Assembly (NCBI GenBank): GCA_012519425.1
Contig: JAAYQF010000111.1
Coordinates: 1 to 35,559, forward strand
Length of the DNA: 35,559 nt
From: Bacteroidales bacterium
Lineage (GTDB): Bacteria > Bacteroidota > Bacteroidia > Bacteroidales > Paludibacteraceae
Reading direction: 5' to 3'
Below are positions 1 through 35,410 of this stretch, one piece after another; positions within the stretch are counted from its first letter, which is position 1, and every line of letters starts with the position of its first letter. Made by a program: the position numbers and the translations under genes. The notes under the pieces are model-generated. The model worked only from the letters and a program-made list of their open reading frames with translations, was not told the DNA's origin and did no database searches.

Positions 1-268
1 ACAAAAGAATAAAGACAAAAGAACAAAGAGCAAAGAGTAAAGACAGAATAAATTGTTTAATGTTTAGTGTTTAGTGTTTAATTTTGTTGAATTGTTGAAC
101 TGAGAACAAAAAGTAAAGATAAAAAAACGATGAACGAAGAACAAAGCTAAAAGCTAAACTCGCGACCCCGGAACACGGAACTCGTAACTTCCCTAACTTC
201 TTATAACTTCTTTAACTTCCAAACTACTAACTACTAACTACTAACTACCAACTACTAACTACTAACAT
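1..268 (+). repeat. Mosaic intergenic repeat copy R1 (forward)
   Basis: This fills the gap before alaS and runs off the window edge. In order it holds: a purine-rich caaag/aaagac tract with period about 7-8 (1-50); gtttagtgtttaatg and gttgaa units (52-106); a gatgaacgaagaacaaag segment (109-160); a GC-rich core beginning cgcgaccccggaacacggaa (161-184); aacttc units of period about 9-10 (185-221); and aactact units of period 7 (222-268). The same modules recur reversed at 2890-3202 and 5659-6060. A TAATTTTG at 79-86 fits the -7 consensus and points toward alaS, but no well-spaced -33 element accompanies it. Confidence 0.9.
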
Positions 269-281
269 ATCAACCCCCATC

Positions 282-2885
282 ATGACCTCCAAAGAAATAC
301 GTCAATCATTTTTAGACTTTTTTGCATCCAAAGATCATAAAATCGTACCTTCTGCACCCATGGTTATCAAAGACGATCCGACCTTGATGTTTACCAATGC
401 AGGTATGAACCAATTTAAAAACATCATTTTAGGCAATGACCCCATTCAATATCCACGTGTGGCCAATTCTCAAAAATGCTTGCGGGTAAGCGGCAAACAC
501 AATGATTTGGAGGAAGTGGGACATGATACCTATCACCACACCATGTTTGAAATGTTGGGCAATTGGTCTTTCGGTGATTATTTCAAAAAAGAAGCAATTG
601 CATGGGCCTGGGAATATCTGACAGAGGTTTTAAAACTGGATAAAGACAGACTTTACGTTTCGGTATTTGCCGGAGCACCTGATGAAGGTTTGGAACGCGA
701 CGACGAAGCCGCTAATTTTTGGTTGCAATATGTTTCCGCAGACCGCATCATCGATGGCAGCAAAGCTGATAATTTCTGGGAAATGGGCGATACCGGTCCT
801 TGTGGTCCCTGCTCCGAAATCCACATTGATTTAAGAAGCGACGCCGAACGGGCAAAAATTGACGGAAAATCATTGATCAATCAGGATCATCCGCAAGTTA
901 TTGAAATTTGGAACAATGTGTTCATGCAATACAACCGCAAGTCAGACGGTTCACTGGAAGAACTTCCCGCTAAAGTGATTGATACCGGCATGGGCTTCGA
1001 GCGGTTGTGCATGGCCATGCAAGGCAAGCAGTCCAATTACGACACAGATGTTTTTCTACCAATCATTCAGACCATCAGCAAATTGAGCGGTATTGCTTAT
1101 GGCGCCAATGAACAATCGGACATTGCGATGCGCGTGATTGCCGATCACTTGCGCACCATTGCCTTCTCCATTACAGATGGACAATTGCCTTCCAATGCCA
1201 AGGCAGGCTACGTGATCCGTCGCATTTTGCGCCGCGCCGTGCGTTATGCTTATACTTTCTTAAATCAACATCAGGCTTTTATGTATCAATTGATCGATGT
1301 GCTGATTGAAGTGATGGGAGACGCTTATCCGGAATTGATGGCACAAAAAACACTGATAGAAAAGGTTATCAAAGAAGAAGAAGATTCTTTCTTAAGAACC
1401 CTGGAAACCGGCATCAAACTGTTGGATAAAAACCTGCCTGCCAATGGTGTGTTGAGTGGAAAAGTTGCTTTTACACTTTACGATACCTATGGTTTTCCGT
1501 TGGACTTGACTGAATTGATTTTGCGCGAAAAGGGCATGCAAGTTAACCACGATGAATTTAACGCTGAAATGCAGCAACAAAAAGACAGGGCACGCAATGC
1601 CGCAGTGATTGAAGCCGGCGACTGGGTTGTTGTACGTGAAGGTGACAGTCGGTTTGTGGGTTATGACTACAAAGAATTTGACACGGAAATTCTTCGTTAC
1701 AGGAAAGTCAAACAAAAAAACAAAGAATATTACCAGTTGGTATTGTCGAACACGCCCTTTTATGCAGAAATGGGTGGACAAGTCGGTGATACGGGAGTGC
1801 TGAAATCCGACACTGAAACCATCACCATCCTTGATACCAAAAAAGAAAATAATCTTTCCGTACATATCACTGCTACGCTGCCTAAGGATGTAACCGAAGC
1901 ATTTACAGCCAGCGTTAATTTGGAAAAACGTGCCGCCACAGAAAGCAATCACTCTGCAACCCACCTGTTGCACGAAGCTTTGCGGGAAGTATTGGGTACC
2001 CATGTAGAACAAAAAGGATCGTTTGTCAGTCCGGAAAGCTTACGTTTCGACTTTTCCCATTTCCAAAAAATGACCAAAGAAGAAATACGGGCTGTGGAAA
2101 AGATTGCCAATCAAAAGATCAGAAAGAATTACCCCCTGGTAGAAACGAGGGAAATGCCTATCGGAGAGGCTCAGGCTATGGGTGCCATGGCATTGTTTGG
2201 CGAAAAATATGGTGAAACCGTGCGTGTGGTACAATTCGGTACTTCAGCCGAACTTTGCGGGGGAACACATGTTCAATCCACCGGTAACATAGGCATGGTC
2301 CGCATCATATCCGAAAGCTCGATTGCAGCAGGCATCCGTCGTATTGAAGCCATCACCGGAGAAGCAGTAGAAAAACTATTGGATTCAGAGCAGGATATCC
2401 TCGCCGAGGCCAAAGAGATATTGCACAACACACCTGATATACTGAATGCCATCCGCCGACAGGCAGAAGAGAACACTGCACTGAAAAAAGAAGTAGAAGC
2501 CTATCAGCAGGAAAAAATCATGCAACTGCGGAAAGAATTGTTAGCTGACGCAGTTGAGGTGAACGGCATCAAAACCATCCGCTATGAGGGCTCACTGACT
2601 GCCGACCAGGCGAAAACACTGGCTTTCCAAATCAGAAACCTACAAAACACCCAACTATTTTTTGTAGCCGGTTGTGTGCATGAAGGCAAGCCCTCGCTTA
2701 CGGTTTTATTGAGCGATGACCTGGTAGAAAAAGGATTGAATGCTGTGACTATTGCCCGGGAGGCTGCCAAAGAAATTCAAGGCGGCGGCGGCGGTCAAGC
2801 TTTCTTCGCTTCAGCAGGAGGAAGAAATGCAGCCGGAATCAAACAAGCGGTGGAAAAAGCGGTGGGAATGGTTCATGATGTTTAA
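282..2885 (+). CDS. alaS: Alanyl-tRNA synthetase
   Basis: This cytoplasmic class II synthetase charges tRNA-Ala with alanine and edits mischarged Ser/Gly. The 867 aa length is normal for the family (E. coli about 876). The N-terminal catalytic core is clear, with [11 protein letters not shown] near residues 36-46 and [16 protein letters not shown] near 87-102. The editing domain has its zinc ligands, HSATH near residue 555 and CGGTH near 658. The C-terminal oligomerisation (DHHA1-type) domain carries a glycine run, GGGGGQAFF, near 834. The ATG at 282 gives the standard [14 protein letters not shown] start; there is no Shine-Dalgarno, as is usual in Bacteroidota. The gene stands alone between two oppositely oriented copies of the mosaic repeat. 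No clear promoter was seen apart from a weak -7 match inside R1. Confidence 0.98.
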
Positions 2886-2889
2886 TGGG

Positions 2890-3202
2890 AAGGTAGTTAG
2901 TAGCTGGTAGTTAGTAGTTAGTAGCTGGTAGTTAGTAGCTGGTAGTTAGGAAGTTAAAGAAGTTATAGAAGTTAAAGAAGTTACGCGTTCCGTGTTCCGG
3001 GGTCGCGAGCTTAGCTTTTGTCTTTGTTCTTCGTTCATCGTTTTTTTTCTTTACTTTTTGTTCTCAATTCAACAGTTCAACAATTAAACAGTTAAACGAT
3101 TCAACATCACACACTAAACATTAAACAATTTATTCTGTCTTTGCTCTTTTGTCTTTGTTCCTTGTTCTTTGTTCCTTGTTCTTTGTTCCTTGTTCTTTGT
3201 TC
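2890..3202 (-). repeat. Mosaic intergenic repeat copy R2 (reverse)
   Basis: This fills the gap after alaS. It has the modules of R1 in reverse complement and reverse order: tagttagtagctgg units, gaagttaaa units of period 9, the GC-rich core (2984-3007, 23 of 24 bases as in R1), ttcttcgttcatcg with a T run, cagttcaa units of period 8, acactaaacattaaac, and finally ctttgttccttgtt units. R1 and R2 therefore form a long imperfect inverted pair around alaS. The copy ends where the terminator hairpin begins. No gene was seen. Confidence 0.9.
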
Positions 3203-3248
3203 AAAAAAAAAGAGTTGCCTCATTTTTTCTGAGGCAACTCCTTTTTTT
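3203..3248. terminator. Bidirectional rho-independent terminator
   Basis: A perfect 11-bp stem (GAGTTGCCTCA at 3212-3222 with its complement at 3230-3240) encloses a 7-nt loop. It is flanked by an A run on the left (3203-3211) and a T run on the right (3242-3248), so it can stop transcripts on both strands. It lies between the convergent alaS and the small exported-protein gene and probably serves both. Confidence 0.92.
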
Positions 3249-3267
3249 AAAATCAGCATTGTAAGCT

Positions 3268-3726
3268 TTAGAATTTAAAGCGTACACCAAGTGCGATGCC
3301 GCTGTAGTGAGGTTTAATAAGGGCACCGTCAGAAAGAAAATCTATTCTGATACCGGGTCTGTAATCGAGTGAAAGCAACAACGGAAAATCGATGTGTTGT
3401 TCCAGATCATACTCAATACCAATTAAACCGAAACCACCCAAATTTAAGTAACCATCCCACAAAAAGCCAATTTGAGGGCCTGCTCCGAGGTACCATTTTA
3501 ATCCTTCCGTAGGTAAGTCAAACATCCACTCATAAGCACCACTCAAATAAGCAACTTCGTGATGAAAGCCAAGACCAAATTCTAATCTGTTAGCTTCTCC
3601 CAGGGGATGTTGATAGCTGATTTCACCCGGCCAACCTAAACGCACACCGATAGATCTTTGGGATTGTGCACCTGCCATGCCCGCAAATCCAATTACTAAA
3701 GCTAATGTGATAATTAATTTTCTCAT
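3268..3726 (-). CDS. Small exported beta-barrel-like protein
   Basis: This is a 152 aa protein with a typical signal peptide (MRKLIITLALVIGFAGMAGA, cleavage probably before QSQ). The mature part is rich in alternating hydrophobic and glycine/aromatic residues (IGVRLGWPG, LEFGLGFHH, YLGAGPQIGF) and ends ALGVRFKF; a terminal aromatic is usual for outer-membrane barrels. It resembles short porin-like or outer-membrane barrel proteins of Bacteroidota. The ligand and role are unknown. I start it at the ATG at 3726; the frame opens three codons earlier at a TTG. It is a single gene, convergent with alaS, with the strong terminator directly after it. It could instead be a secreted beta protein that is not inserted in the membrane. 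Confidence 0.75.
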   Translation of the reverse strand: MRKLIITLALVIGFAGMAGAQSQRSIGVRLGWPGEISYQHPLGEANRLEFGLGFHHEVAYLSGAYEWMFDLPTEGLKWYLGAGPQIGFLWDGYLNLGGFGLIGIEYDLEQHIDFPLLLSLDYRPGIRIDFLSDGALIKPHYSGIALGVRFKF

Positions 3727-3780
3727 ACAATTCAAAATTTAATTAATAAAAATTAGGAAGCACAAAAGTATAAAAAAAGT

Positions 3781-5568
3781 TTAATCCTGCCAATCACCAT
3801 GCATTTTAATAAGTTCTATTAACTTATCAACAGCTTCTTTTTCATCAATATTCTTCTCCATCAATTCCCTCTTTTTGTACAAATGTACTTTTCCGCGTCC
3901 GGCACCAACATAGCCATAATCTGCATCTGCCATTTCACCGGGACCATTTACTATGCAACCCATTATCGCGATTTTAAGTCCCTTGAGATGTGAAGTAGAA
4001 GCTTTAACACGCGCTATGGCATCCTGCAAATCAAATAAGGTGCGTCCGCAACCCGGACACGAAATAAATTCGGTTTTAGAGACCCGCACACGCGATGCCT
4101 GTAAAATACCGAAAGCCACAGCATTCACCTGCTCTACTCCTATGGATTTGGGAGTGGTGGCTTCATCCACAGTCAGGAAAATGCCATCACCAAACCCATC
4201 TAGAAACATTACCCCTAAGTCGGCCGCAGCATTGATCTGCAATTCCGATAATTGAGATACGGCATGTTGTTGACACAAAATAACCGGTGTGGCTATTCCA
4301 TGATTCATCAGGGTGTGGAAAAATGCCCGCATCTCTCCAACCGGATTTTGATGATGGGATTGCAATAAGACAACTATCTGTAAATCTGACCTTAACAAAT
4401 TGAGAATGGCATCGTTTAAGTCCGCATAGGTTAATTTCAGAAATTTCGCTTCCGATGTATCTTGTACTAATTCATCAATTGAAGAAGGGGTGTAAACAGG
4501 ATAAACAGTTCCAGTCCTACTCTTAATGGTTCCATTTTGAACCAAATAATCCGGTTCAATAGCGAAACGACCTTCTTTATTCACCAATACCACGGGGACT
4601 TGCTCACCGCCTATGTTCAATACCTGATAGGTTTTTCTTCTTGTATATTCATAAGGAGAAAAGTCAGGATTAAGCTCAGCGGCAACGGTTTTATGTCCTT
4701 TCTTTAAAAGCACATGCTCTACCAATTGTCGAGCTACGGGGATCTCTGCCTCCGGATCTTCGCTTAGCGAAACGCGAATGGTATCACCTATGCCATCATG
4801 CAACAAAGCCCCGATGCCAACCGATGATTTGATGCGACCGTCTTCTCCATCACCGGCTTCGGTAACGCCAAGATGCAAAGGGTAATGCATATCGTGCTTG
4901 TCCATTTCCGAGACCAACAAACGCGTTGCATGCACCATCGATAAGGTATTGGATGCCTTCATCGAGATCACCACATCCTTGAAATTTTCCGCTTCGCAGA
5001 TGTGCAAAAACTCCATGCACGATTCCACCATTCCTCTTGGCGTATCACCCCAACGATTCATCATCCGTTCACTCAAAGAGCCATGGTTGACGCCAATGCG
5101 GATGGCGGTGCCCTGCTCTTTGCATATATTCAACAATTCCGTGAATTTAAGCTTGATCTTCCGAAACTCTTCCTGATATTCTTCTTCCGTATAATCAGCA
5201 GTGCGCACTACCCTTCCAATGTAATTACCGGGATTGATGCGGACCTTCTCAACATGCTGCGCTGCAATATTGGCAGCATCAGCCCGAAAATGTATATCAG
5301 CCACTAAAGGAACAGTGCAGCCCTGATTCAACAAAGCCTGTTTGATGTTTTTCAGATTTTCCGCTTCCTTCACCCCCTGCGCCGTAAAGCGAACAATTTC
5401 GGCGCCCGCTTCCACCATCCTGATACATTGTGCTACCGAACCCTCAGTATCATTGGTGTCGGTATTGGCCATGGATTGCAAGCTGACAGGATATTCACCG
5501 CCCAGGAAAATATGCCCGATATGCACCGTATGGGCTTGTCGCCTGTGATAATTAAATTGATCAACCAT
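3781..5568 (-). CDS. ispG: (E)-4-hydroxy-3-methylbut-2-enyl-diphosphate synthase, long form
   Basis: This is the penultimate enzyme of the MEP isoprenoid pathway. It converts MEcPP to HMBPP with a [4Fe-4S] cluster and reduced ferredoxin or flavodoxin. The 595 aa length is the long form known from Bacteroidetes, chlamydiae and plants, in which an extra domain separates the TIM barrel from the cluster domain (E. coli about 372 aa). The N-terminal barrel has PVSLQSMANTDTNDTEG and IRIGVNHGSLS. The cluster domain has CPGCGRTLFD near residue 503 and MGCIVNGPGE near 535, which supply the three cysteine ligands and the glutamate. I start it at the ATG at 5568 (MVDQFNYHRRQ). The frame is open to a TTG at 5595, but that codon lies inside the -7 promoter box. 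It ends about 55 bp from the start of the divergent neighbour. Confidence 0.97.
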   Translation of the reverse strand: MVDQFNYHRRQAHTVHIGHIFLGGEYPVSLQSMANTDTNDTEGSVAQCIRMVEAGAEIVRFTAQGVKEAENLKNIKQALLNQGCTVPLVADIHFRADAANIAAQHVEKVRINPGNYIGRVVRTADYTEEEYQEEFRKIKLKFTELLNICKEQGTAIRIGVNHGSLSERMMNRWGDTPRGMVESCMEFLHICEAENFKDVVISMKASNTLSMVHATRLLVSEMDKHDMHYPLHLGVTEAGDGEDGRIKSSVGIGALLHDGIGDTIRVSLSEDPEAEIPVARQLVEHVLLKKGHKTVAAELNPDFSPYEYTRRKTYQVLNIGGEQVPVVLVNKEGRFAIEPDYLVQNGTIKSRTGTVYPVYTPSSIDELVQDTSEAKFLKLTYADLNDAILNLLRSDLQIVVLLQSHHQNPVGEMRAFFHTLMNHGIATPVILCQQHAVSQLSELQINAAADLGVMFLDGFGDGIFLTVDEATTPKSIGVEQVNAVAFGILQASRVRVSKTEFISCPGCGRTLFDLQDAIARVKASTSHLKGLKIAIMGCIVNGPGEMADADYGYVGAGRGKVHLYKKRELMEKNIDEKEAVDKLIELIKMHGDWQD

Positions 5569-5592
5569 TTTTTGGAGTCTAACAAAGAACTG

Positions 5593-5600
5593 CAAACTTA
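5593..5600 (-). promoter_or_regulatory. ispG -7 promoter element
   Basis: On the minus strand this reads TAAGTTTG, an exact match to the Bacteroidetes -7 consensus TAnnTTTG, about 25 nt upstream of the ispG ATG. No TTTG at the usual 19-21 nt spacing was found. The predicted leader is only about 20 nt. Confidence 0.6.
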
Positions 5601-5658
5601 TATTTATTTTGTCAATCTTGAAGCTTTTGTCGAAAAGTTTTTATGTGGGGAGTGTTTA

Positions 5659-6060
5659 TTAGTAGTTGGTAGATAGTAGTTAGTAGTTAGTAGTTTTTTT
5701 GGAAGTTATGGAAGTTAATAGCTAGTAGTTGGTAGTTAGTAGTTAGTAGTTAGTAGTTAGTAGTTTTTTTGGAAGTTATGGAAGTTAAAGAAGTTAGGGA
5801 AGTTAGGGAAGTTACGAGTTCCGTGTTCCGGGGTCGCGAGTTTAGCTTTTAGCTTTGTTCTTCGTTCATCGTTTTTTTATCTTTACTTTTTGTTCTCAGT
5901 TCAACAATTCAACAAAATTAAACTCTAAACACTAAACATTAAACAATTTATTCTGTCTTTGCTCTTTTGTCTTTGCTCTTTTGTCTTTGCTCTTTGTTCT
6001 CAGTTAAACAGTTCAACAGTTCAACGATTAAACACTAAACACTACACATTAAACAATTAA
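5659..6060 (-). repeat. Mosaic intergenic repeat copy R3 (reverse)
   Basis: This is the longest copy. It lies between the divergent ispG and SulP genes. The order is tagtagt units, gaagtta units, the GC-rich core (5815-5838, identical to R1 over 24 bases), the cgttcatcg/T-run segment, ttcaaca units, actaaacatt and ctttgctcttttgt units. A second round of cagttcaa and aaacactaaac units follows at 6001-6060. The first two modules are themselves duplicated: the tagttttttt-ggaagttatg junction occurs at 5691-5710 and again at 5761-5780. It is a near-copy of R1 in inverted orientation. No gene was seen. Confidence 0.92.
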
Positions 6061-6064
6061 ATGC

Positions 6065-6072
6065 TATCTTTG
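6065..6072 (+). promoter_or_regulatory. SulP gene -7 promoter element
   Basis: TATCTTTG is an exact match to the Bacteroidetes -7 consensus, 24 nt before the ATG. It follows the end of repeat R3 directly. There is no TTTG at the ideal -33 spacing; upstream is only the acactaaac repeat. Confidence 0.65.
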
Positions 6073-6095
6073 CATCGTTTTTTTCAATAGATATC

Positions 6096-7772
6096 ATGCG
6101 CTTTAAACCTAAGTTATTTTCAAGTTTACGAACTTACTCCAAAGAACTATTTTACAAGGACTTAATGGCCGGCATTATTGTCGGGATTGTGGCTTTACCC
6201 TTAGCTATTGCGTTCGGGATAGCATCGGGAGTTGCGCCTGAGAAAGGGCTTTTCACTGCTATTATTGCAGGTTTTATCATTTCATTCTTCGGAGGAAGTA
6301 AGGTTCAGATTGGCGGACCAACCGGTGCTTTTATCGTCATCGTTTACGGCATAGTGCAGGAATTTGGGGTTACGGGACTGACCATTGCGACCATCCTGGC
6401 TGGTGTTATGCTCATAGCCATGGGCTTGCTTAAGCTTGGCGCAATCATCAAATTTATTCCCTACCCCATTGTGGTCGGTTTTACGAGCGGGATTGCCCTG
6501 ACCATTTTTGCTACTCAGATAAAAGATTTATTTGGCATGACCATAGAGTCGATGCCGGCAGATTTTATCAGCAAGTGGATTATATATGCCAAAAATATCC
6601 AAACGACTAATTTGGCAGCTTTAGCCGTTGGAATTCTCAGCATTGTCATCATTATCTTCACGCCAAAATTTTCAAAGAAAATACCCGGTTCTCTGATTGC
6701 CATTGTTGTAATGACAGCGATAGTTTACGTTTTGCGCGAATTTTTCGGCTTTACCTCCATTGAAACCATCGGCGACAGATTCAGCATTGACCCCTCTTTG
6801 CCCAAAGCCGATGCACCCAGAATTACTTTCGACATGGTGCAAACGCTGATACCGGCCGCTTTTACCATTGCCATGCTGGGTGCCATAGAATCATTGTTGT
6901 CAGCTACGGTTGCTGATGGCGTTATCGGCGACAGGCATCATTCCAATACGGAATTGATAGCACAGGGAATTGCCAATGTGATAACACCCATTTTCGGAGG
7001 GATCCCCGCAACCGGTGCCATCGCGAGGACTATGACCAATATAAACAATGGCGGACGAACTCCGGTGGCGGGTATTATTCACTCCATCGTCTTATTGTTG
7101 ATTTTACTTTTCCTGGGTAATCTCACCAAACACATTCCCATGGCTTGCCTGGCAGGGGTACTCGTCATGGTTGCATACAACATGAGCGAATGGCGGACTT
7201 TCAGGGCCTTGCTGAAAGGTCTGAAATCAGATATGCTGGTATTGGTCACGACCTTTTTACTGACAGTCATTTTTGATTTGACCATCGCCATTGAACTTGG
7301 TTTGGTATTGGCGGTTGTATTGTTTGTCAAAAGAATGTCTGAAAGCTCTCAAATCAGCATATTTAATGAAGAAGTGGAAGAAGCTGAATACGTTGAAGGC
7401 AATATTGAATCTGGAATGTTACAACTTCCCAAAGGAGTTGAGGTATATGAAATTGAGGGTCCGTTCTTTTTCGGATTGGCCAATAAATTCGAGGAGACGA
7501 TGAAGAAAATCGGTAGCAGTCCGGATGTCAGAATTATCAGAATGCGGAAAGTACCCTTTATCGACTCTACCGGATTAAATAATCTAAGCAACCTCATCCG
7601 GATGTCGAAAAAAGACAAGACTGTGATTGTGTTGTCGGGTGTAAATGAACAAGTCCGTAACGCCATTAAAAAAGCCAACATTGACAAGAGGATCGGAGAT
7701 GAGAACATCTGTAACAACATCACCGAAGCATTGGCAAGGGCAGAAAAAATCATAGCGAAAAATAAAAAATAG
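6096..7772 (+). CDS. SulP-family inorganic anion transporter with STAS domain
   Basis: This inner-membrane carrier belongs to the SLC26/SulP family, whose members move sulfate, bicarbonate or related anions with H+ or Na+. At 558 aa it has the usual layout. About the first 410 residues are hydrophobic membrane helices, including ALPLAIAFGIASGV near residue 34 and the family motif QIGGPTGAF near 72. A cytoplasmic STAS domain covers about 440-550, with FIDSTGL near 487, the serine site of anti-sigma-antagonist-like STAS folds. The substrate cannot be told from sequence; bicarbonate or sulfate are the main options. It has its own promoter at 6065 and is divergent from ispG across repeat R3. No transport partner is encoded nearby. 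Confidence 0.92.
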   Translation: MRFKPKLFSSLRTYSKELFYKDLMAGIIVGIVALPLAIAFGIASGVAPEKGLFTAIIAGFIISFFGGSKVQIGGPTGAFIVIVYGIVQEFGVTGLTIATILAGVMLIAMGLLKLGAIIKFIPYPIVVGFTSGIALTIFATQIKDLFGMTIESMPADFISKWIIYAKNIQTTNLAALAVGILSIVIIIFTPKFSKKIPGSLIAIVVMTAIVYVLREFFGFTSIETIGDRFSIDPSLPKADAPRITFDMVQTLIPAAFTIAMLGAIESLLSATVADGVIGDRHHSNTELIAQGIANVITPIFGGIPATGAIARTMTNINNGGRTPVAGIIHSIVLLLILLFLGNLTKHIPMACLAGVLVMVAYNMSEWRTFRALLKGLKSDMLVLVTTFLLTVIFDLTIAIELGLVLAVVLFVKRMSESSQISIFNEEVEEAEYVEGNIESGMLQLPKGVEVYEIEGPFFFGLANKFEETMKKIGSSPDVRIIRMRKVPFIDSTGLNNLSNLIRMSKKDKTVIVLSGVNEQVRNAIKKANIDKRIGDENICNNITEALARAEKIIAKNKK

Positions 7773-7778
7773 TAAAAA

Positions 7779-7810
7779 TTTGATTTATCAAATTCATTTA
7801 ATTATTTTTG
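7779..7810 (+). promoter_or_regulatory. Bacteroidetes-type promoter for the coiled-coil gene and zapA
   Basis: The TTTG at 7779-7782 (-33), a 20-nt spacer and the TATTTTTG at 7803-7810 (-7) match the Bacteroides consensus in both boxes and in spacing. The ATG of the coiled-coil gene follows 17 nt after the -7 box. This is the best full promoter in the window. Confidence 0.75.
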
Positions 7811-7827
7811 TCTGATATTTTCTTAAG

Positions 7828-8121: not shown

Positions 8122-8126
8122 AGCAT

Positions 8127-8420: not shown

Positions 8421-8446
8421 GTTTATCGTACAATCAATTATTCCCG

Positions 8447-8490: not shown

Positions 8491-8537
8491 GTGTCTGACA
8501 TTGATAATAAATATTATAAATATTAAAATACACGCAT

Positions 8538-10064
8538 ATGACCCTATATATGATCATCACCGGAATAGCCGGTTTGCTCCTTGGGAGCGGGGTGATATTA
8601 ATTATCAACTCTGCCCTTCAAAAGAAAAGAAAAAAAGATGCTTTAGCCGAAATAGAATTGCTCAAAAAAGACCAACTGATTGAGGTTAAGGAGAAATTCA
8701 TTGCACTTAAGGCTGAACACGAACAACAAGTGCAACAGCGTAACGCCAAAATACAAGACAGAGAAGTAAAACTCCAGCAGCGCGAAATGCAACTCAATCA
8801 AAAGCAGGGAGAAGTTCAACGTAAAATAAATTCAGTGGATGCACTGAAAGAATCACAAGAACAACAACTTCAACTGCTTGAAAAAAGAAAAGTCGAACTC
8901 GATCAGCTTGTCCATCAGGCTCAGACGCAATTGGAAAATGTTTCAGGTTTATCCGCCGCAGAAGCCAAAGAACAATTAATTGAATCTTTAAAAGATGAAG
9001 CCAAGACCAATGCCATGGCGTACATCAACGACATCATGGCTGAGGCAAAAATGACTGCCAACAAAGAGGCTAAAAGAGTAATCATCAACACCATCCAAAG
9101 GGTAGCCACCGAAACAGCCATTGAAAATTCAGTAACGGTATTTCATATTGAATCGGATGAAATTAAAGGTAGGATCATCGGTCGTGAAGGTCGTAACATC
9201 CGGGCTTTGGAAGCCGCTACCGGTGTGGAAATCATCGTTGATGACACACCCGAAGCCATCGTTCTTTCAGCCTTCGACCCTGTGCGCAGAGAAATTGCCA
9301 GGCTGTCCCTGCATCAATTGGTGACCGACGGACGCATTCATCCTGCCCGCATCGAAGAAGTAGTCAACAAAGTACAGAAACAAATAGAAGAAGAAATTGT
9401 TGAAGTGGGTAAACGAACTGCCATAGATTTGGGTATTCATGGTTTACACCCTGAACTGGTACGCCTGGTAGGAAAAATGAAATATCGCTCTTCATACGGA
9501 CAAAATCTCCTGCAACACTCGCGCGAGGTGGCCAATCTTTCTGCTACCATGGCTTCTGAATTGGGCTTGAACCCCAATGCTGCCAAACGTGCCGGATTAT
9601 TACACGACATTGGAAAAGTGCCCGATGACGAGCCGGAAGCACCACACGCAATCCTTGGTATGCGGCTGGCTGAAAAATACAAAGAAAAGCCCCAGGTTTG
9701 CAATGCAATCGGTGCGCACCATGACGAAATTGAAATGGAAAGCCTGCTTGCACCCATCGTCCAGGTTTGTGATGCCATTTCAGGGGCAAGACCCGGAGCA
9801 AGACGCGAAATTGTGGAAGCTTATATCAAGCGCCTCAAAGACCTTGAAAGTCTGGCAGCACAATATCCGGGCGTTGTTAAATCCTATGCCGTACAGGCCG
9901 GTAGAGAACTGCGCGTAATCGTTGGTGCCGATAAGCTGGATGATAAAGAAACCGAATTATTATCATTTGATATTGCCAAAAAAATCCAGGATGAAATGAC
10001 CTATCCCGGTCAGGTAAAAATTACGGTAATTAGGGAGACGAGGGCGGTGAGTTATGCAAAATAA
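8538..10064 (+). CDS. rny: Ribonuclease Y
   Basis: This is a membrane-anchored endoribonuclease that starts mRNA turnover. The 508 aa show the full family layout. There is one N-terminal transmembrane helix (residues about 5-25, [18 protein letters not shown]). A long glutamine/glutamate-rich coiled coil follows to about 170. A KH RNA-binding domain has [15 protein letters not shown] near 205. An HD metal-dependent phosphohydrolase domain has [12 protein letters not shown] near 324 and the HDIGK pair near 355. The ATG at 8538 places the helix at the very start, as expected. It is monocistronic: the zapA terminator lies upstream and repeat R4 begins directly after the stop. The zapA-rny order is usual in Bacteroidota. 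No consensus -7 box was found in front of it. Confidence 0.97.
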
Positions 10065-10260
10065 ACTAAGAACGAAGAACGAAGAACGAAGAGTGAAGAA
10101 CGATGAACTAAAAACTGACCACGCGACCCCGGAACACGGAACTCGGAACACGTTAACTTCTCTAACTTCTCTAACTTCATTAACTTCCAAAAACTACAAA
10201 CTACAAACTACAAACTACTAACTACTAACTACTAACTACTGGCTACTGACTTCCATAACT
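10065..10260 (+). repeat. Mosaic intergenic repeat copy R4 (forward)
   Basis: This begins at the rny stop codon. The order is as in R1: aagaacg units, gaacgatgaactaaaaactg, the GC-rich core (10122-10145, identical over 24 bases), aacttctct units of period 9, then actacaa and aactact units of period 7. It lacks the purine-rich caaag tract and the ttcaaca/aaacatt modules at the left end, so it is a shortened copy. The remaining 130 nt up to the next gene hold a promoter. Confidence 0.9.
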
Positions 10261-10287
10261 TCACAACAAACAAACATAAAAAAACCA

Positions 10288-11019: not shown

Positions 11020-11120
11020 CGATAAACGAAGAACAAGGAACAAAGACAAAAGAACAAAGACAGATTAACGAAGAGTGATGAACTAAAAACTAAAAACTGA
11101 ACTCGTGACACCGGAACATG
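11020..11120 (+). repeat. Mosaic intergenic repeat copy R5 (degenerate, forward)
   Basis: This holds gataaacgaagaacaagg and acaaaagaacaaagac units, a gatgaactaaaaactaaaaa segment and a decayed GC-rich core (tgacaccggaacatggaa at about 11105-11122). The aacttc and aactact modules are missing. With element A at 11174-11357 it accounts for most of the 450-nt gap between the lipoprotein and ROK genes. No gene was seen here. Confidence 0.75.
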
Positions 11121-11173
11121 GAACAGGGATATTCGTTTAATTCAACTTTAAAAGCAGAATTAATAAATATGTT

Positions 11174-11357
11174 GGGGCTGTCCCAAAAGCAAATATTCAA
11201 CAAAAAACAGCAAGGTGTTTTAGAAGTGTCCCAAATGCAAGGCACTGAGATTGAGGGCAAAGGAGCATACTGAAGTATGTGACTGAGCCCGAATATCGAA
11301 AGTAACGTGGTTACTGAGCAAAGTCGAAGTACAGCAGTTGGGCGCTTATAAAACACC
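11174..11357. repeat. Dispersed element A (GGGGCTGTCCC family) with long hairpin
   Basis: It starts GGGGCTGTCCCAAAAGC. Its first 70 nt match, with about 80-85% identity by eye, the reverse complement of 24727-24798 and, more weakly, 32501-32568. Arms GGTGTTTTA (11214-11222) and TAAAACACC (11349-11357) pair. Inside are two small palindromes, CATACT-ga-AGTATG (11266-11279) and GTAAC-gtg-GTTAC (11302-11314), plus an actgagcaaagtcgaagt segment. It ends directly at the 3' end of the ROK gene. The terminus resembles the ends of some Bacteroidetes insertion sequences, but no transposase is present, so it may be a MITE or an IS remnant. Confidence 0.75.
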
Positions 11358-11359
11358 GT

Positions 11360-12571
11360 TTATGGAATCAGCCCGAGCATCTTGCTCCTTGCAAGCATGC
11401 ACGCACCAATAAGGCCAACTTTGTCACCTAATTTGGAAAGCTTTATAGCCGTATCCTTGCTTACTAAGTTTAAGGAGTATTTTTTTACGGCACTCTTAAG
11501 GGGTAACAATAAATAATCTCCGGCATTTGCCACGGTTCCTCCTATAACAACCAGCTCCGGATTCAGTAAATTTATCAGCCCCGCTATGTGTTTTCCAAGC
11601 GTGTTTCCTACATCCTCTATCAGTTCTATTGCCAATATATCCTCGTTTAGTGCCGCATGTATAATGTCTTCTAAAATTATGGACTTATTTTTTTCTATTT
11701 TCTTTGTCAATGAAGACGAATAACCTTCTGCAATTTTTTCAAGGAATTTTTTATAAATGTAACTTCCGGAAGCCTCCGTTTCGAGACAGCCTTTCTTTCC
11801 ACAGTGGCATATTATTTCATTGTCAAAGACGGTCATATGCCCAAACTCACCTGAGAATCCAGATTTACCATAGTATAGTTGTCCGTTGATGATAATCCCC
11901 AGCCCAAGTCCCCAGCTTACATTGACGAACAACACATTTTTTTCGCCACCGACACATCCTTTCATATATTCACCGTAAGCCATCGATCGTGAATCATTGT
12001 CAATGGTGACATGTATCCCAAACCGCTCCTTAAAAACTTCCGTCAGCGGTCTTTCGTCAAAATAAAAAAAGCTGTAGCTGTGTCCGGATTCAGTATTGAC
12101 CCGCCCTGATATATTAATACCGATACTCAATATCGAGTCTCGTGGAACTGTTGTTTGTCCCAAAAAGTCGCTTATTATTTCACACAAGTTGTCGAAGCTT
12201 TCGTGTGTACGATCCATCTGAAAAGGTATATTCATCTGTGAATCAACCAACTCTCCCTTAAAATTGATCACACCTATATTGATGTGAAATTGCCGCATAT
12301 CTACTCCGACAAAATATCCGGAATTCGCGTTCAGTCCGTAAATGCTCGGACGCCGTCCACCGCTGGTTTCCTGTTTTCCTAATTCCAAAACAAAACCGTC
12401 ATCCATCAGTTCCGCAACCAACTTGGTAACAGTAGGTACACTCAAGCCCATTTCTCTGCCTAAATCCGCCAATGTACACTCACCATTGTTGATGTAACAA
12501 CAAATAATTTCTCTTTTCAGATAAGCATTTTTAGAACCTGAATTTATTTCTTGTATAAATTTTAAAGTCAT
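11360..12571 (-). CDS. ROK-family transcriptional regulator (NagC/XylR type)
   Basis: This is a probable sugar-responsive repressor of the adjacent carbohydrate genes. Of its 403 aa, the N-terminal 70 or so form a winged helix-turn-helix (CTLADLGREMGLSVPTVTKL). The rest is a ROK domain, with DNDSRSMAYGEY near residue 190, GLGLGIIINGQLYYGKSGFS near 220, and the zinc motif CHCGKKGCLE near 251, followed by the usual glycine-rich C-terminal part (NPELVVIGGTVANAG). The length and the DNA-binding domain separate it from ROK sugar kinases. It is divergently transcribed from the MFS transporter across a 261-nt AT-rich gap, so control of that operon is likely. The inducer may be a hexosamine or another sugar phosphate made by the pathway; that is inference. 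Confidence 0.92.
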   Translation of the reverse strand: MTLKFIQEINSGSKNAYLKREIICCYINNGECTLADLGREMGLSVPTVTKLVAELMDDGFVLELGKQETSGGRRPSIYGLNANSGYFVGVDMRQFHINIGVINFKGELVDSQMNIPFQMDRTHESFDNLCEIISDFLGQTTVPRDSILSIGINISGRVNTESGHSYSFFYFDERPLTEVFKERFGIHVTIDNDSRSMAYGEYMKGCVGGEKNVLFVNVSWGLGLGIIINGQLYYGKSGFSGEFGHMTVFDNEIICHCGKKGCLETEASGSYIYKKFLEKIAEGYSSSLTKKIEKNKSIILEDIIHAALNEDILAIELIEDVGNTLGKHIAGLINLLNPELVVIGGTVANAGDYLLLPLKSAVKKYSLNLVSKDTAIKLSKLGDKVGLIGACMLARSKMLGLIP

Positions 12572-23199: not shown

Positions 23200-23517
23200 A
23201 GAACAAAGAGCAAAGACAAAAAGAGCAAAGAACAAAGACTAAAAATTAATGATTAATGATTCACCGGCAAATAACTCTGTTTTTAGCAGTTTCCCTGCCC
23301 GCTACTTAATGTAATTTCAATAATTATGAATAAATTTACAGCGAATAGAAATAGAAATTACACACTTTTGGGGACTACCGTTGGGAAGATTAACCACGGT
23401 AAAAACCGGCGTTCTTATTATTGTCCCAAAAGTCCCCCGGGGGATAAGGGGACAGATCAATTAAAACAATTAATAACCAATTAAAATAATTAACAGTCAA
23501 TTAAATTTTAAAAAAAA
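23200..23517. repeat. Intergenic region: repeat scrap and nested palindromes
   Basis: The first 50 nt (gaacaaagagcaaagacaaa units) are the purine-rich module of the mosaic repeat without its other parts. From 23364, ACTTTTGGGGAC pairs with GTCCCAAAAGT (23423-23433), enclosing a smaller stem ACCGT...ACGGT (23377-23400). A further C/G-rich palindrome, gtcccccgggggat, lies at about 23432-23445. An aaaagtccccc...gggggat motif also precedes the second leucine-rich gene (24857-24878). The last 60 nt are AT-rich and shared with the leader of that gene. No clear -7 box was seen. Confidence 0.6.
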
Positions 23518-24684: not shown

Positions 24685-24690
24685 CTCATG

Positions 24691-26244: not shown

Positions 26245-26246
26245 GT

Positions 26247-27305: not shown

Positions 27306-27331
27306 TTTTGATTTATAAAAGTTATATACCA

Positions 27332-28477: not shown

Positions 28478-28521
28478 CAAATTACTGCAATAACGAATTT
28501 TTATAATCATAGGAAACATAG

Positions 28522-30087: not shown

Positions 30088-30144
30088 AAAAATCAAAATA
30101 ACTAACAATCAGATTAAATTAAATAATTATAAAACACAGTAATT

Positions 30145-31530: not shown

Positions 31531-31558
31531 GTATTATAAACCATAAATTAATAAAGAC

Positions 31559-32488
31559 ATGACAATTGATAGAAGAAATTTTTTAAAGGTATCTGCGTCC
31601 GGTGCAGCTTTGGCTGCTGTTGCAAGTACGCCTGTGTTGGGAGCTTGTACGAGTACAGCTTCCAAAGGAAAAATTGCCGGAGCAAACAAAACCCGGCTTA
31701 AGCTTTCATTTCAAGAAGGTACCGCACCGGGTGATAATTTGCATCAGAAGTTTGATTTTATGGAAGAACTGGGTGTAGTGGGCTATGAGCCAGGGGGATT
31801 CGGATTAAAAGATCAAGTGAAAGAAATTCAGGATGCATTGAAAGGGAGAAATATTCAAATCTCCGCAATTTGTGCAGGATTCAGAGGCTTTATTCTTTCC
31901 ACCGAAGAAAGTGTTCGGCAGGAATGTATAGATTCGATGAAAGAGATCATTGAGGCTGCCGGAGCATTACAGTCTGTAGGGGTGATCATTGTTCCTGCTT
32001 TTAATGCTCAGAAACCTGTTTTGCCCCATACCCGCGAGACAAGGGATTTTCTTTGTGAACAGTTCAATATCCTGGGTGATTTTGCCAAACAGCACAACAC
32101 CACTGTAATTTTAGAACCCCTGATGAGAGGAGAAGCTTTTTATCTGCGTCAAATAGCCGATGCTGCCTCCATTTGCCGTGATATCAATAATGACGGAGTG
32201 CGTTGTATGGGTGATTTTTGGCATATGACCCACGAAGAAACTTCGGATATGGGTGCCATCCTTTCCGGAGGAGCGTACTTACAACACATGCACATAGCCA
32301 GTCGCAAACGCAGGGTGATGCCGGGAGAGGACGGTGATGCCGATAATTATGTTGATGGCTTCAAAGCTTTGAAAATGATAAACTACGATAAGTTTATCAG
32401 TTACGAGTGCGGACTGGCAGGTGAAGACCGCGGTGCTACCATTCGTGCCTCTGTTGATCTTTTACGCGAACAATGGGAAAAAGCTTGA
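31559..32488 (+). CDS. Tat-exported sugar isomerase/epimerase-like TIM barrel (lipoprotein)
   Basis: This 309 aa protein belongs to the xylose isomerase-like/AP-endonuclease-2 TIM-barrel superfamily. The Tat motif DRRNFLK (4-10) is followed by a hydrophobic stretch ending VLGAC (Cys30), giving a folded-export lipoprotein. The expected divalent-metal ligands can be placed on successive strands: Glu in TVILEPLMRG (near 185), Asp in MGDFWHM (near 218), His in LQHMHIAS (near 243) and Glu in YECGLAG (near 282). It probably isomerises or epimerises, or perhaps cleaves, the (keto-)sugar made by the exported oxidoreductase upstream, with which it is co-transcribed (28 nt). The exact reaction is unknown. 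Confidence 0.88.
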   Translation: MTIDRRNFLKVSASGAALAAVASTPVLGACTSTASKGKIAGANKTRLKLSFQEGTAPGDNLHQKFDFMEELGVVGYEPGGFGLKDQVKEIQDALKGRNIQISAICAGFRGFILSTEESVRQECIDSMKEIIEAAGALQSVGVIIVPAFNAQKPVLPHTRETRDFLCEQFNILGDFAKQHNTTVILEPLMRGEAFYLRQIADAASICRDINNDGVRCMGDFWHMTHEETSDMGAILSGGAYLQHMHIASRKRRVMPGEDGDADNYVDGFKALKMINYDKFISYECGLAGEDRGATIRASVDLLREQWEKA

Positions 32489-32500
32489 TAACAGCGTAAT

Positions 32501-32590
32501 GGAGCTGCCTCAAAAAAATATTTAACTGATAAGCGCAAGGGTGTTTTAAAAGTGTCCGAATGCGGGGCACTTTTAAAAACCCCGGCCGGT
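32501..32590. repeat. Dispersed element C with hairpin
   Basis: It starts GGAGCTGCCTCAAAA, 12 nt after the isomerase stop, and is a decayed relative of element A in the same orientation (shared caagggtgttttaaaagtgtcc). GTTTTAAAAGTG (32543-32554) pairs with CACTTTTAAAAAC (32568-32580). It may attenuate or stop transcription between the isomerase and the MFS gene. Confidence 0.65.
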
Positions 32591-32620
32591 ATTTAACTCA
32601 CAACTCAATATTTGTAAAAC

Positions 32621-33823
32621 ATGAAAGATTCAATAAAAATCAAGCTATCCATCATGATGTTCCTTCAATATTGCATACAAGGTTCATGGTATGTCACAAT
32701 GGGTACTTATCTGGGGCAAACATTGAAATTTACGGGTGTTCAAATCGGATTGGCTTATGGCACTGCCGCCATTGCCGCTATTATCTCACCTGTTTTTATT
32801 GGCATGATCGCTGACCGTTATTTTTCACCTAACCGTGTTCTTTTTGTTCTTAACACCATTGGTGCTATTATTCTTGTTTTACTAACGAGAATAACAAATT
32901 TCTCACTTTTCTTTCCGGTGCTGTTGATTTATTCCATATGTTTTATGCCGACAATGTCTCTTACCAATTCTATTTCTTTTGATAACCTTAAAGAACCAGG
33001 TAAGGAGTTTTCGAGAATTCGCCTGTTTGGTTCATTGGGTTGGATTGGTGCCGGACTGATCATCAGTAGCCGGGGATTAGAACCTTTTGCAACACCATTT
33101 TTAATTGCTGCAGGGATATCCATGTTTGCCGGACTTTTTGCGTTGCTCTTGCCCTATAAAAAACCGATTCAGGTTGAAAACAAGATTTCAGCTTCTCAAA
33201 TACTTGGTTTCGATGCCTTTAAACTTACTAAAGACAAATCATTTTTTGTTCTGATCCTTATTTCTACTTTAACTTGCATACCATTAGCATTTTATGATTC
33301 ATTTACAAATTTATATATTACTAATGTTGGAATAGGTAATGCTGCTGCAGCCATGAGCCTGGGGCAAGTTGCCGAAATAATTTTCCTTTTTACTTTTCCA
33401 TTTTTCTTCTTAAAATTAAGATATAAAGGTAGTATTGTTGCAGCGATTTTAGCATGGGTGGTAATGTATGGCTTTTTCGCCCTGGGAGCATACACCGGAT
33501 ATAAAGGTTTTATCTATTCTGTTCTTCCATTACATGGCTTCTGTTTTACGTTCTTTTTCGTTGCCGGACAATTATTTGTCGACGAAAAAGCTCCATCCAC
33601 ACTGAGAAATTCAGCCCAGGGTCTGTTGACTTTTGCCACCTACGGTGTTGGGAAGTACTTAGGTACATTGGTAGCAGGAAATGTTGTTCAGGCAAATACT
33701 TCTAATGGAGATTATAATTGGACATCAATTTGGGCTGTGCCGTTTTTCATTGCAATTGTTTTACTGATCGCTTTTATTGTTTTCTTTAACGAAAAAAGAG
33801 ATAACAAAAAAATATCAGTATAG
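32621..33823 (+). CDS. MFS transporter, nucleoside:H+ symporter (NupG/XapB-like) type
   Basis: This inner-membrane carrier is 400 aa with about 12 hydrophobic helices. Family likeness is seen in the first helix (MMFLQYCIQGSWYVTMGTYL), GMIADRYFSPNRVL near residue 64, SLTNSISFDNL near 110, and IRLFGSLGWIGAGLI near 130. In Bacteroidota, members of this branch often sit beside Gfo/Idh/MocA oxidoreductases and sugar isomerases and are then thought to move sugars rather than nucleosides. Here it lies between an exported isomerase and a cytoplasmic oxidoreductase, so import of the periplasmic product is the likely role. I start it at the ATG at 32621 (MKDSIKIKL); an overlapping frame from 32560 is not used. 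Confidence 0.9.
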   Translation: MKDSIKIKLSIMMFLQYCIQGSWYVTMGTYLGQTLKFTGVQIGLAYGTAAIAAIISPVFIGMIADRYFSPNRVLFVLNTIGAIILVLLTRITNFSLFFPVLLIYSICFMPTMSLTNSISFDNLKEPGKEFSRIRLFGSLGWIGAGLIISSRGLEPFATPFLIAAGISMFAGLFALLLPYKKPIQVENKISASQILGFDAFKLTKDKSFFVLILISTLTCIPLAFYDSFTNLYITNVGIGNAAAAMSLGQVAEIIFLFTFPFFFLKLRYKGSIVAAILAWVVMYGFFALGAYTGYKGFIYSVLPLHGFCFTFFFVAGQLFVDEKAPSTLRNSAQGLLTFATYGVGKYLGTLVAGNVVQANTSNGDYNWTSIWAVPFFIAIVLLIAFIVFFNEKRDNKKISV

Positions 33824-33865
33824 AAACAAACCCTCAGTTCTTATAATCATTAAAAATTTTATAGT

Positions 33866-35029
33866 ATGCATAGAAAACTCAAAATGGGTATGGTAGGCGG
33901 TGGTAAAGATGCTTTTATCGGAGCAATCCATCGTAATGCTGCCCTTATGGATAATTTGATTGAATTGGTTTGTGGATGTTTCAGTGTCGATCCTGAAGTG
34001 TCACAAAGTTCCGGAAAATCGTATTTCCTTCCTGATAATCGTATTTACAATTCTTATCAGGAAATGTTCGAAAAAGAAATGACCTTACCTCCAAATGAAC
34101 GAATGGACTTTGTAACCATTGTCACTCCCAATAAGTGGCATTTTGAACCGGCTATGATGGCCCTCGAAAGGGGTTTTCATGTAGTGATAGACAAGCCCAT
34201 GACTTTTTCTTTGGAAGAAGCAAAAAAATTGAGAGATAAGGTTGAAGAAACAAATTTAGTTCTTGCATTGACCCATGTATATTCGGGTTATCCTGCCGTT
34301 AAAGAGGCTAAGGCACGGATCAGGAATGGCGAATTAGGCAAATTACGAAGACTTTATGTTGAATACACCCAGGGCTGGCTGACAGAACGAATTGAACTGC
34401 TGGGTGGTAATAATGCGGGTTGGCGTACAGATCCCAAACAAACAGGCAAGGCAGGATGTATAGGCGACATCGGAACCCATGCGTGGCATTTAACTGAGTA
34501 TATCACAGGTTTGAAAGTTAAAGAGATTTCTGCAGACGTAAGAACTTTTGCGGAAGGAAGACTTGTGGATGATGACGGTGCTGCTTTTCTAAGGTATGAA
34601 AACAATGTGTCGGGGGTCTTAATGGCAACACAGATTGCTGCAGGAGATGCGAACAATATTCGTGTCAGAGTATATGGTGATAAAGGTGGATTAGAGTGGC
34701 AGCAAATGGATCCGAACAAGCTAATTATGAAATGGCTTGACAGACCAACAGAGATTATACATATAGGGAATAATGGGTATATGAGTGATTTTGCTGTTTG
34801 GAATACCAGAACTCCCGCAGGGCACCCTGAAGGATTTATTGAAGCCTTTGCCAATATTTATCGTAACTACGCACTCGCCGTTATGGATTTTAAAAATGGT
34901 AAAACACCTGACTGTAAAACATTAGATTTCCCCAATGTTTATGATGGAGTGAGAGGAATGCAGTTTATTGAAACGATGATCGCTGCAGGAAATGACAATA
35001 ACAACAAATGGCAAAAATGGATTGATTAA
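33866..35029 (+). CDS. Cytoplasmic Gfo/Idh/MocA oxidoreductase
   Basis: This is an NAD(P)-dependent sugar or cyclitol oxidoreductase, 387 aa, without a signal peptide. The cofactor motif GMVGGGKDAFIGAIHR begins at about residue 8. The EKP position is DKPM (VVIDKPMTFS) near 113. GWRTDP and GCIGDIGTHAWHL near 205 carry the expected Asp and His of the active site. It probably handles, inside the cell, the sugar brought in by the MFS carrier 42 nt upstream, for example by reducing a keto group. The stop codon falls at the border of dispersed element D, so the last residues may have been changed by that insertion. Confidence 0.92.
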   Translation: MHRKLKMGMVGGGKDAFIGAIHRNAALMDNLIELVCGCFSVDPEVSQSSGKSYFLPDNRIYNSYQEMFEKEMTLPPNERMDFVTIVTPNKWHFEPAMMALERGFHVVIDKPMTFSLEEAKKLRDKVEETNLVLALTHVYSGYPAVKEAKARIRNGELGKLRRLYVEYTQGWLTERIELLGGNNAGWRTDPKQTGKAGCIGDIGTHAWHLTEYITGLKVKEISADVRTFAEGRLVDDDGAAFLRYENNVSGVLMATQIAAGDANNIRVRVYGDKGGLEWQQMDPNKLIMKWLDRPTEIIHIGNNGYMSDFAVWNTRTPAGHPEGFIEAFANIYRNYALAVMDFKNGKTPDCKTLDFPNVYDGVRGMQFIETMIAAGNDNNNKWQKWID

Positions 35030-35053
35030 ATATTTACTTTTGAGACAGCCCCG
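35027..35053 (-). repeat. Dispersed element D (end fragment)
   Basis: Read on the minus strand, it begins GGGGCTGTCTCAAAAGTAAA and matches the first 27 nt of element A. It abuts the stop codon of the oxidoreductase gene. Only the terminus is present; no hairpin part was found. Confidence 0.6.
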
Positions 35054-35102
35054 TCAGGTTTTGGTTAAATACAAACCTGCGTCTGGATTGTGGCTAATTT
35101 GG

Positions 35103-35410
35103 GGAAAGTTAGGGGAGTTGTTTTTAGTAGTTAGTAGTTGGTAGTTGGTAGTTGGTAGTTCGGAAGTTATAGAAGTTGAGGAAGTTAGGGAAGTTAGGGA
35201 AGTTAAAATATTAAACCACAAAAGGCACAAAAGAAACTTCACCAATCACCACTCACCAATCACTGTTCACCACTCACCAATCACTAAACAATTCAACGAT
35301 TAAACAGTTCAACAATTCGACAAAATTAAACACTAAACATTAAACATTAAACAATTTGTCTTTATTCTTTGCTCTTTTGTCCTTGTTCTTTTGTCTTTGC
35401 TCTTTGTTCT
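35103..35410 (-). repeat. Mosaic intergenic repeat copy R6 (reverse, core replaced)
   Basis: This has tagtagt/tggtagt units (to 35160), gaagttaggg units of period about 9 (to 35205), then, in place of the GC-rich core, a different module of actcaccaatcac units (35240-35285). It then resumes the usual order: ttcaacga units, aaacactaaacattaaac and ctttgctcttttgtc units. It fills the gap between the last gene and the tmRNA promoter. Confidence 0.88.

Follow-up and report, generated by a model that had tools for sequence, protein, structure and literature searches.

Ordered composite arrays of short tandem repeats at conserved intergenic places in a Paludibacteraceae genome and its sister species

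In a 35,559-nt contig of a Bacteroidales bacterium of the family Paludibacteraceae (assembly GCA_012519425.1, contig JAAYQF010000111.1; the whole of this stretch is hereafter the window), six intergenic gaps hold composite elements in which several kinds of tandem word, 7, 8 or 9 nt long, follow one another in an order that hardly varies. The window forms contig C40 of a Bacteroidota draft genome (G000; 2.39 Mb, 142 contigs), which we compared with a sister species, Bacteroidetes bacterium ADurb.Bin174 (G005); the median protein identity between the two is 92.4% over 169 reciprocal best pairs from sampled parts of the genomes. The elements lie between genes in either orientation, and most of the conserved gene pairs that carry one in G000 also hold an array in G005. 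The explanation that we prefer, with a probability of roughly 0.55, is that these are position-stable non-coding composite arrays whose contents change through slippage and through the copying of blocks from one element to another, on intergenic DNA where they are tolerated.

Modules, order and occurrence

We called elements in 497 kb of G000 and 1012 kb of G005 (1.51 Mb together) with the reversed sequence as a control, and confirmed the modules with Tandem Repeats Finder and by direct reading. The search yielded 72 elements, 23 in G000 and 49 in G005, and none in reversed sequence. They span 51-497 nt, with a median of 175, and their density of about one element per 21 kb may be too high because most of the G000 contigs had been selected for carrying the core. 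Read on the strand of that core, the order is A (AACAAAG), B (TTTAGTG), C (TTGAACTG), A again, D (AACGAAG), E (AAGCTAA), F (the core), G (TAACTTCTT) and H (AACTACT); in a variant of this order, a reversed CACCAAT module stands for D-E-F. The words run in one direction within an element, with 1082 of the 1121 word hits on the element strand and 39 on the opposite one. Across the core, the order is near strict among the 72 elements (A before F 25:0, A before G 33:0, D before F 36:0, D before G 46:1, F before G 36:2, F before H 27:1) and it is looser where modules recur within an element (G before H 35:9, A before D 26:11, A before B 5:4, A before C 8:8), although these counts are not blind, since the module words were picked after the elements of both genomes had been read. 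The elements of the window and their core copies are as follows.

1-268, plus strand: element 1, on the 5' side of alaS; modules A-B-C-A-D-A-E-F-G-H, with AACAAAG words at 1-45, TTTAGTG at 54-82, TTGAATTG/TTGAACTG at 87-102, AACGATG/AACGAAG at 126-139, AAGCTAA at 144-157, the core at 161-184, TAACTTCTT at 185-219 and AACTACT at 222-266
161-184, plus strand: core copy of element 1, 24 nt, GC-rich, CGCGACCCCGGAACACGGAACTCG, with heptad-phased GAACACG within it
2890-3202, minus strand: element 2, with the module order of element 1, inverted; between alaS and a terminator-like hairpin at 3204-3248
2984-3007, minus strand: core copy of element 2, one base different
5659-6060, minus strand: element 3, double, with two B and C blocks and two G/H blocks
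5815-5838, minus strand: core copy of element 3, identical
10065-10263, plus strand: element 4, modules D-F-G-H-G; starts at the RNase Y stop codon
10122-10145, plus strand: core copy of element 4, identical
11020-11124, plus strand: element 5, decayed, with A and D words (AACAAAG/AACGAAG type) and a degenerate core CGTGACACCGGAACATGGAAC at 11104
23201-23237, plus strand: array of A words (AACAAAG) only, directly after the stop codon of a DUF4434 gene
35103-35410, minus strand: element 6, modules A-B-C-i-G-H, with a reversed CACCAAT module and a TTTCTTTTGTGCC segment instead of D-E-F

The first-pass annotation of the window had placed the same set of modules in six gaps. The units that it named, their tandem repetition, the kept order and the occurrence in either orientation all hold, but "the same set" is too strong for the gaps at 11020-11120 and 35103-35410; element 6, in the latter, has no GC core and neither an AACGAAG nor an AAGCTAA module. 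The array of A words at 23201-23237 was absent from its list. Its description of the 24-nt core was accurate in that three copies are identical and the fourth, at 2984-3007, differs at one base, and we found no match to this core in 100 dinucleotide shuffles.

Tandem repetition in G000 is concentrated in the gaps and at a few periods. Period 7 accounts for 1251 of 40428 intergenic bp versus 135 of 456746 genic bp, and periods 8 and 9 account for 102 and 662 intergenic bp versus 0 and 0 genic bp, while intergenic periods 5, 6, 10-13, 15, 17 and 19 account for 0 bp in the 497 kb. The longer intergenic periods (14, 16, 18, 20, 21 and 24) are mostly multiples of 7, 8 and 9, and a laxer threshold adds 40-46 bp at periods 15 and 22. 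A count of six-unit intergenic arrays that is independent of the words gives 64 at period 7 in G000, 112 in G005 and 23 in a relative, G015. The corresponding numbers are 7 and 4 at period 8 and 12 and 20 at period 9 (G000 and G005), 2, 5 and 1 at period 6 (G000, G005 and G015) and zero at period 10. In further samples from the genus, 18-70 kb in size, period-7 repetition amounts to 0 bp (G033, G032, G001 and G026), 32 bp (G060) or 127 bp (G004). Counting overlaps, the 9-nt module pattern matches at 247 positions of G000 versus 14 in its control, and at 216 positions of G005 versus 13.

The first-pass annotation had proposed a search for the core through the genome and its relatives, and that search establishes that the arrays are not limited to the window. 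A 21-nt core pattern with up to 2 mismatches matches 23 times in G000, 12 forward and 11 reverse, with no match in the reversed control. It is found in 5 of 59 relatives, with 19 copies in G005, 8 in G004 and one each in G026, G042 and G044; the G004 copies are a variant form surrounded by other words. Against public genome contigs, a 17-nt piece of the core matches at 26 loci, 5 of them from ADurb.Bin174. Module words adjoin the core at only three of these 26 (L080, L081 and L086, all ADurb.Bin174), so most of the other matches look like chance, and none of the three loci on viral contigs that match the 17-nt piece carries module words.

We also observe a second kind of intergenic repeat with a similar GC heptad core, at L016, L017 and L020 in G000, L027 in G026 and L043 in G005. 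The core stands at the end of this repeat, after conserved stretches of a different sequence, which at several loci are GTCTTGA..CAAAAAAAA..TCAAGACT..GCCCGCTTCGCTCG and/or TTTTTGGCTCACC..GAGGTCGG, and as judged by eye it has the core alone in common with the composite elements.

Stable places and changing contents

Among 112 gene adjacencies conserved between G000 and G005, 100 carry no called element, 7 carry one in both species, 5 in G000 only and 0 in G005 only. All seven elements called in both species have the same orientation. By eye, four of the five one-sided gaps still hold heptad or 9-nt repeats in G005, one of them with about two 9-nt units, and in two one-sided gaps the heptad word is a different one, AGTTGGT-type in G000 versus GAGTTCT in G005. 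Element 1 has a G005 counterpart at the orthologous place (locus L039), the G005 orthologue of element 3 is shorter and element 4 can be aligned with its orthologue. Aligned orthologous elements differ in whole units, whole modules and even words; both gain and loss of units are seen against the G005 orthologues, which bears out the local expansion that had been suggested from the window alone.

The conserved places also bear on two of the alternatives. An assembly or binning artefact might be suspected given that the window is a single contig out of the 142 in the draft genome, but copies lie on many contigs, and because arrays occupy the same gene pairs in the sister genome, which was assembled separately, we give this explanation next to no weight. 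A second alternative, raised in the first-pass annotation, is a mobile element; in this case, a non-autonomous element would have inserted as a unit behind genes and later decayed by slippage. The fixed module order and the block identity between loci would fit such an origin, as would element 5, the sole G000 element among the 12 conserved pairs without a G005 counterpart; at this gene pair, the sole empty site for a target-duplication comparison, the G005 flanks give no clean alignment. However, 11 of the 12 conserved gene pairs with a G000 element also hold a G005 array, which speaks against movement into new sites. Furthermore, element ends are ragged and lie within tandem words, and no inverted repeat of 14 nt or more was found inside or at the ends of four window elements, save the terminator-like hairpin beside element 2. 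No Y1 transposase (PF01797) was found in G000, with controls positive in 5 of 14 and no other transposase family searched, and element 1 matches neither a phage nor a plasmid. Taken together, these observations make a mobile origin improbable.

The elements have no preferred direction relative to genes or to GC skew. Of the 63 elements with genes on both sides, 30 lie on the same strand as the A-side gene and 33 on the opposite one; gene starts here are rough, because genes were called by a purpose-made open reading frame and codon score, and in 9 of the 63 cases the overlap between the element and a called gene exceeds 40 nt. With respect to local GC skew, 31 elements agree, 32 disagree and 9 are weak or undecided. 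Gaps of at least 100 nt carry an element at similar frequencies between codirectional (33/271), divergent (15/105) and convergent (7/53) genes. The ends, in contrast, are placed unevenly. Stop-facing ends lie within 15 nt of the stop codon in 24 of 48 cases, versus 5.7 ± 2.0 (maximum 12) in 2000 trials of random placement in the same gap, whereas start-facing ends lie within 15 nt of the start codon in 7 of 66 cases versus 7.8 at random. The space needed by promoters may account for part of this abutment to stop codons.

The abutment speaks in favor of a transcript-end or mRNA 3'-end signal, which could be a Rho-type site, with a C-rich, G-poor strand and regular pyrimidine-C spacing, or a barrier to decay. 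Consistent with this role, the core strand appears G-poor by eye, and four core-strand pieces have no significant fold (z-scores of -0.5 to -1.7). The even split of orientations with respect to the upstream gene, the equal frequency of elements in divergent and convergent gaps and the separate terminator-like hairpin that adjoins element 2 all argue against it, and we consider a signal of this kind very improbable. The first-pass annotation had suggested transcript ends; a strand-dependent role of this kind, or one linked to the direction of replication, is not supported, given the lack of bias in the tabulated orientations. A DNA-organising role that is blind to strand may still apply.

Blocks of modules are shared between loci, in agreement with the earlier suggestion of copying as a unit. 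Elements 1 and 3, 5.6 kb apart, have 125 identical nt in common, and exact matches between G000 elements 4.5-25 kb apart reach 125, 55, 52 and 50 nt. A block of B and C, tail included, recurs in near-identical form at six loci of G000, and the four counterpart loci inspected in G005 lack it; 8 of 23 G000 elements contain B words, versus 3 of 49 in G005. Matches of at least 40 nt join 7 of 32 near pairs of G000 elements (up to 30 kb) versus 4 of 221 far pairs, and the near mean is reached by 2 of 2000 permutations. Of the seven shared elements, six match another G000 element better than their own orthologue.

The model that best accommodates these features is one in which the arrays keep their intergenic positions, many of them next to a stop codon, while their contents are continually rewritten. 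Replication slippage would add and remove whole 7-, 8- and 9-nt units, which changes the number of units and in the end the words themselves. Multi-module blocks would be copied between similar elements by recombination or gene conversion, so that the module order is kept while blocks spread through the genome; the B-C block would then have been gained in G000. Selection would chiefly purge arrays that break genes or promoters, leaving the others to occupy the gap that extends from a stop codon to the promoter or start codon that follows. The arrays would thus be tolerated or selfish filler, probably neutral, and not a directional regulator.

Several observations weigh against this model of tolerated, rewritten arrays. 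The median longest match in G000 is 21.5 for near pairs and 21.0 for far pairs (Mann-Whitney p = 0.14); as the medians are alike, only the tail of the distribution differs and the signal of local copying is partial. In G005, there is no such signal (near 1/62, far 1/1114; 733 of 2000 permutations). The best-match comparison sets a maximum over many elements against a single orthologue, and the maximum over other G005 elements also beats the orthologue in six of seven cases. The fraction of shared 11-mers is 0.123 within G005 and 0.135 between species, with only G000 higher (0.197). As the comparison has no outgroup, the B-C block may have been lost in G005 instead of gained in G000. Slippage alone leaves unexplained both the dominance of 7-, 8- and 9-nt units and the retention of AAC in diverged G005 arrays (18 of 22 invariant cores), and the placement at stop codons could reflect a role at the 3' end rather than tolerance.

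The genes assigned with Pfam include the following.

282-2885: alaS
3781-5595, minus strand: GcpE/IspG gene
6096-7772: sulfate permease
8538-10064: RNase Y gene, stop codon at 10062-10064
11360-12571, minus strand: ROK-family gene
In the window: ZapA gene

Two further stretches are of note. A promoter-like TATCTTTGCA stands directly behind element 6 (window 35420-35559), together with a sequence that resembles the beginning of a tmRNA gene and is cut off by the window end; ARAGORN and Rfam report none there. At 11161-11360, we observe non-coding GGGGCTGTCCCAAAAG..GTGACTGAGCCCGAATATCGAAAGTAACG, kept in G005 save for a 24-nt gap and possibly another repeat.

Relation to known repeat classes

Like the composite arrays, REP/BIME, CRISPR and MITE sequences are dispersed or arrayed intergenic non-coding repeats. 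The first-pass annotation rightly set the elements apart from CRISPR, from REP/BIME and from a single minisatellite. Their 7-9-nt units have no spacers and no 23-47-nt repeats with unique spacers are present, which rejects CRISPR; the absence of inverted repeats of at least 14 nt from the four elements examined and of PF01797 from G000 rejects REP/BIME. A MITE or other non-autonomous transposon is not supported either, given the absence of terminal inverted repeats from the four window elements. A structured RNA was likewise rejected, as the window has 0 Rfam matches at the gathering threshold and six pieces from the elements of four gaps give no significant fold (z-scores of -0.5 to -1.7). 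Finally, the lack of matches rejects a phage or plasmid origin of element 1.

The closest classes are those built on heptamers, namely the STRR sequences, the long simple sequence repeats and the TAACTGA repeats. The composite elements share with them short units of mainly 7 nt, intergenic position and many loci. They depart from these classes, as we read them, in holding up to eight kinds of word per element instead of one word per array. They also fall outside the strict TAACTGA class, in that their words differ and they lie on start sides as often as at random, although no search for tandem TAACTGA itself was made. The cyanobacterial STRR heptanucleotides, which Mazel and colleagues are said to have described in 1990, are reportedly dispersed intergenic tandem heptamers whose function was not known. 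They are reported to hold one word per array, in contrast to the several ordered words observed here, and to our knowledge there is no fixed-order composite STRR. Contiguous 7-bp repeats in either orientation also make up the omega2/parS arrays of pSM19035, but these form a partition centromere with its own ParA/ParB genes, whereas the arrays described here are genome-wide and, with no binding protein sought, have no known binder.

The TAACTGA repeats, as described by MacGregor 2015 (PMC4679880), are tandem 7-nt intergenic words with many sets per genome and a patchy distribution that includes five Bacteroidetes; that system uses one word, which in the main genome lies mostly just upstream of start codons. 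The composites instead combine at least eight words of 7, 8 and 9 nt in a near-fixed order, with no orientation preference, often at stop codons and at places conserved in the sister species. The same paper relays that long simple sequence repeats have units of 5-11 nt, with heptanucleotides the commonest in most genomes, and that slippage linked to the polymerase has been proposed for them (Mrazek et al. 2007, via PMC4679880). The preference for 7 nt is the same here, but the arrays are dispersed composites with a conserved order and blocks shared between loci. Literature searches returned no recognised description of such composites, with PMC4679880 as one close relative. We place the elements among the short-unit intergenic tandem repeats, a group dominated by heptamers and already described in cyanobacteria, Beggiatoaceae and some Bacteroidetes, as a composite, ordered and position-stable form with blocks common to several loci.

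Heptad anchors and the wider phylum

The most interesting rival to tolerated filler is a binding platform, in which a protein that binds single strands or duplex DNA would read one anchor per 7 nt in either orientation, with the period and the anchor under selection and the other letters free to drift. By analogy, the binder might be a Csp/S1-like protein, of the type that MacGregor (PMC4679880) proposes for TAACTGA, or a ribbon-helix-helix protein like omega2 on the pSM19035 heptads. The dominance of period 7 among six-unit arrays (64 in G000, 112 in G005) would fit this proposal, as would the trinucleotide AAC, which has the largest excess at lag 7 in both genomes (224 seen versus 49 expected, and 505 versus 101). 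AAC is also present in 18 of 22 invariant cores of diverged G005 arrays, though these arrays are related copies and not independent. In addition, at two gene pairs the corresponding gaps of G000 and G005 are occupied by heptads of unlike words, and (AACNNNN)x6 occurs in 172 of 395 Bacteroidota genomes, with the AAC anchor at period 8 in 76 of 395, some of these being plain 4-nt repeats.

The anchor is not general, however. In the same 395 genomes, other heptad anchors are found in 156 (CAA, the reversed control) and 115 (ACA), the hand-transcribed hit sums being 3715 for AAC versus 2299 for CAA. Heptad phasing is thus widespread and AAC only a modest favourite, which weakens a phylum-wide "AAC code". 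In diverged G000 arrays, AAC is present in just 3 of 17 invariant cores and AAAGA is foremost with 7, while the anchor in G015 is ACT/CAG. The intergenic heptads of that genome (CAGTGAT, CAGTTAT and CAGTGAA) form mixed arrays, and their complement contains TAACTGA. The even distribution over types of gene pair likewise does not favor a binding platform. The idea of an anchored heptad is therefore supported mainly within G005, and we regard the binding platform as unlikely. At locus L260 of G174, we note an array that switches strand midway, with GTT per 7 nt and then AAC per 7 nt, so that it is loosely palindromic while the letters of the spacers vary.

The slot upstream of alaS was inspected by eye at 29 same-genus loci (G005 and 28 others), and its repeats differ by species. 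The contents are GTCAAAA/GACATTA heptads, a CCCCTAAATCCCC palindrome family, GTTATTTACTTCGT words, TTGTAAA words, other words or nothing obvious. Several species have some of these repeats in common, perhaps merely through inheritance. The palindrome family is dispersed, with at least 29 matches in G032, 44 in G016, 35 in G027, 15 in G002, 9 in G005 and 4 in G000; the GTC/GAC family has fewer (9 in G004, 5 in G022, 4 in G062 and 1 in G015). These counts include the slot itself and, with 40 candidates scored in four genomes, are lower bounds. At L190, L197, L206 and L208, the 5' slot of alaS holds a dispersed CCCCTAAATCCCCTAAAGGGG..CCCCCTTTAGGGGGC family, whose matches in four species number at least 15-44 per genome.

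Because repeat families, one of them dispersed, vary in the alaS slot, words vary in gaps of the sister species and heptads occur in 172 of 395 genomes, a broader pattern can be proposed for the Bacteroidota, although we hold it to be doubtful. In this proposal, the intergenic slots and the period (7, less often 8 or 9) would be conserved while the word is lineage-specific and exchanged, as a heptad-phased system throughout the genome, and the maintainer would be either a dedicated writing or homogenising process or an oligomeric protein with one anchor per heptad.

Arrays of short words are usually regarded as unstable noise. The arrays described here are stable in place between two species, are composed as an ordered "sentence" of words and have blocks common to several loci. 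Slippage and ectopic gene conversion in bacteria could be studied on this natural material, and so could the preference for 7-nt units, which lacks an explanation. A protein that reads the heptads, should there be one, would be a regulator or a nucleoid protein acting at perhaps some 100 places per genome, a figure scaled up from the 23 elements called in 0.5 Mb and the 49 called in 1.0 Mb.

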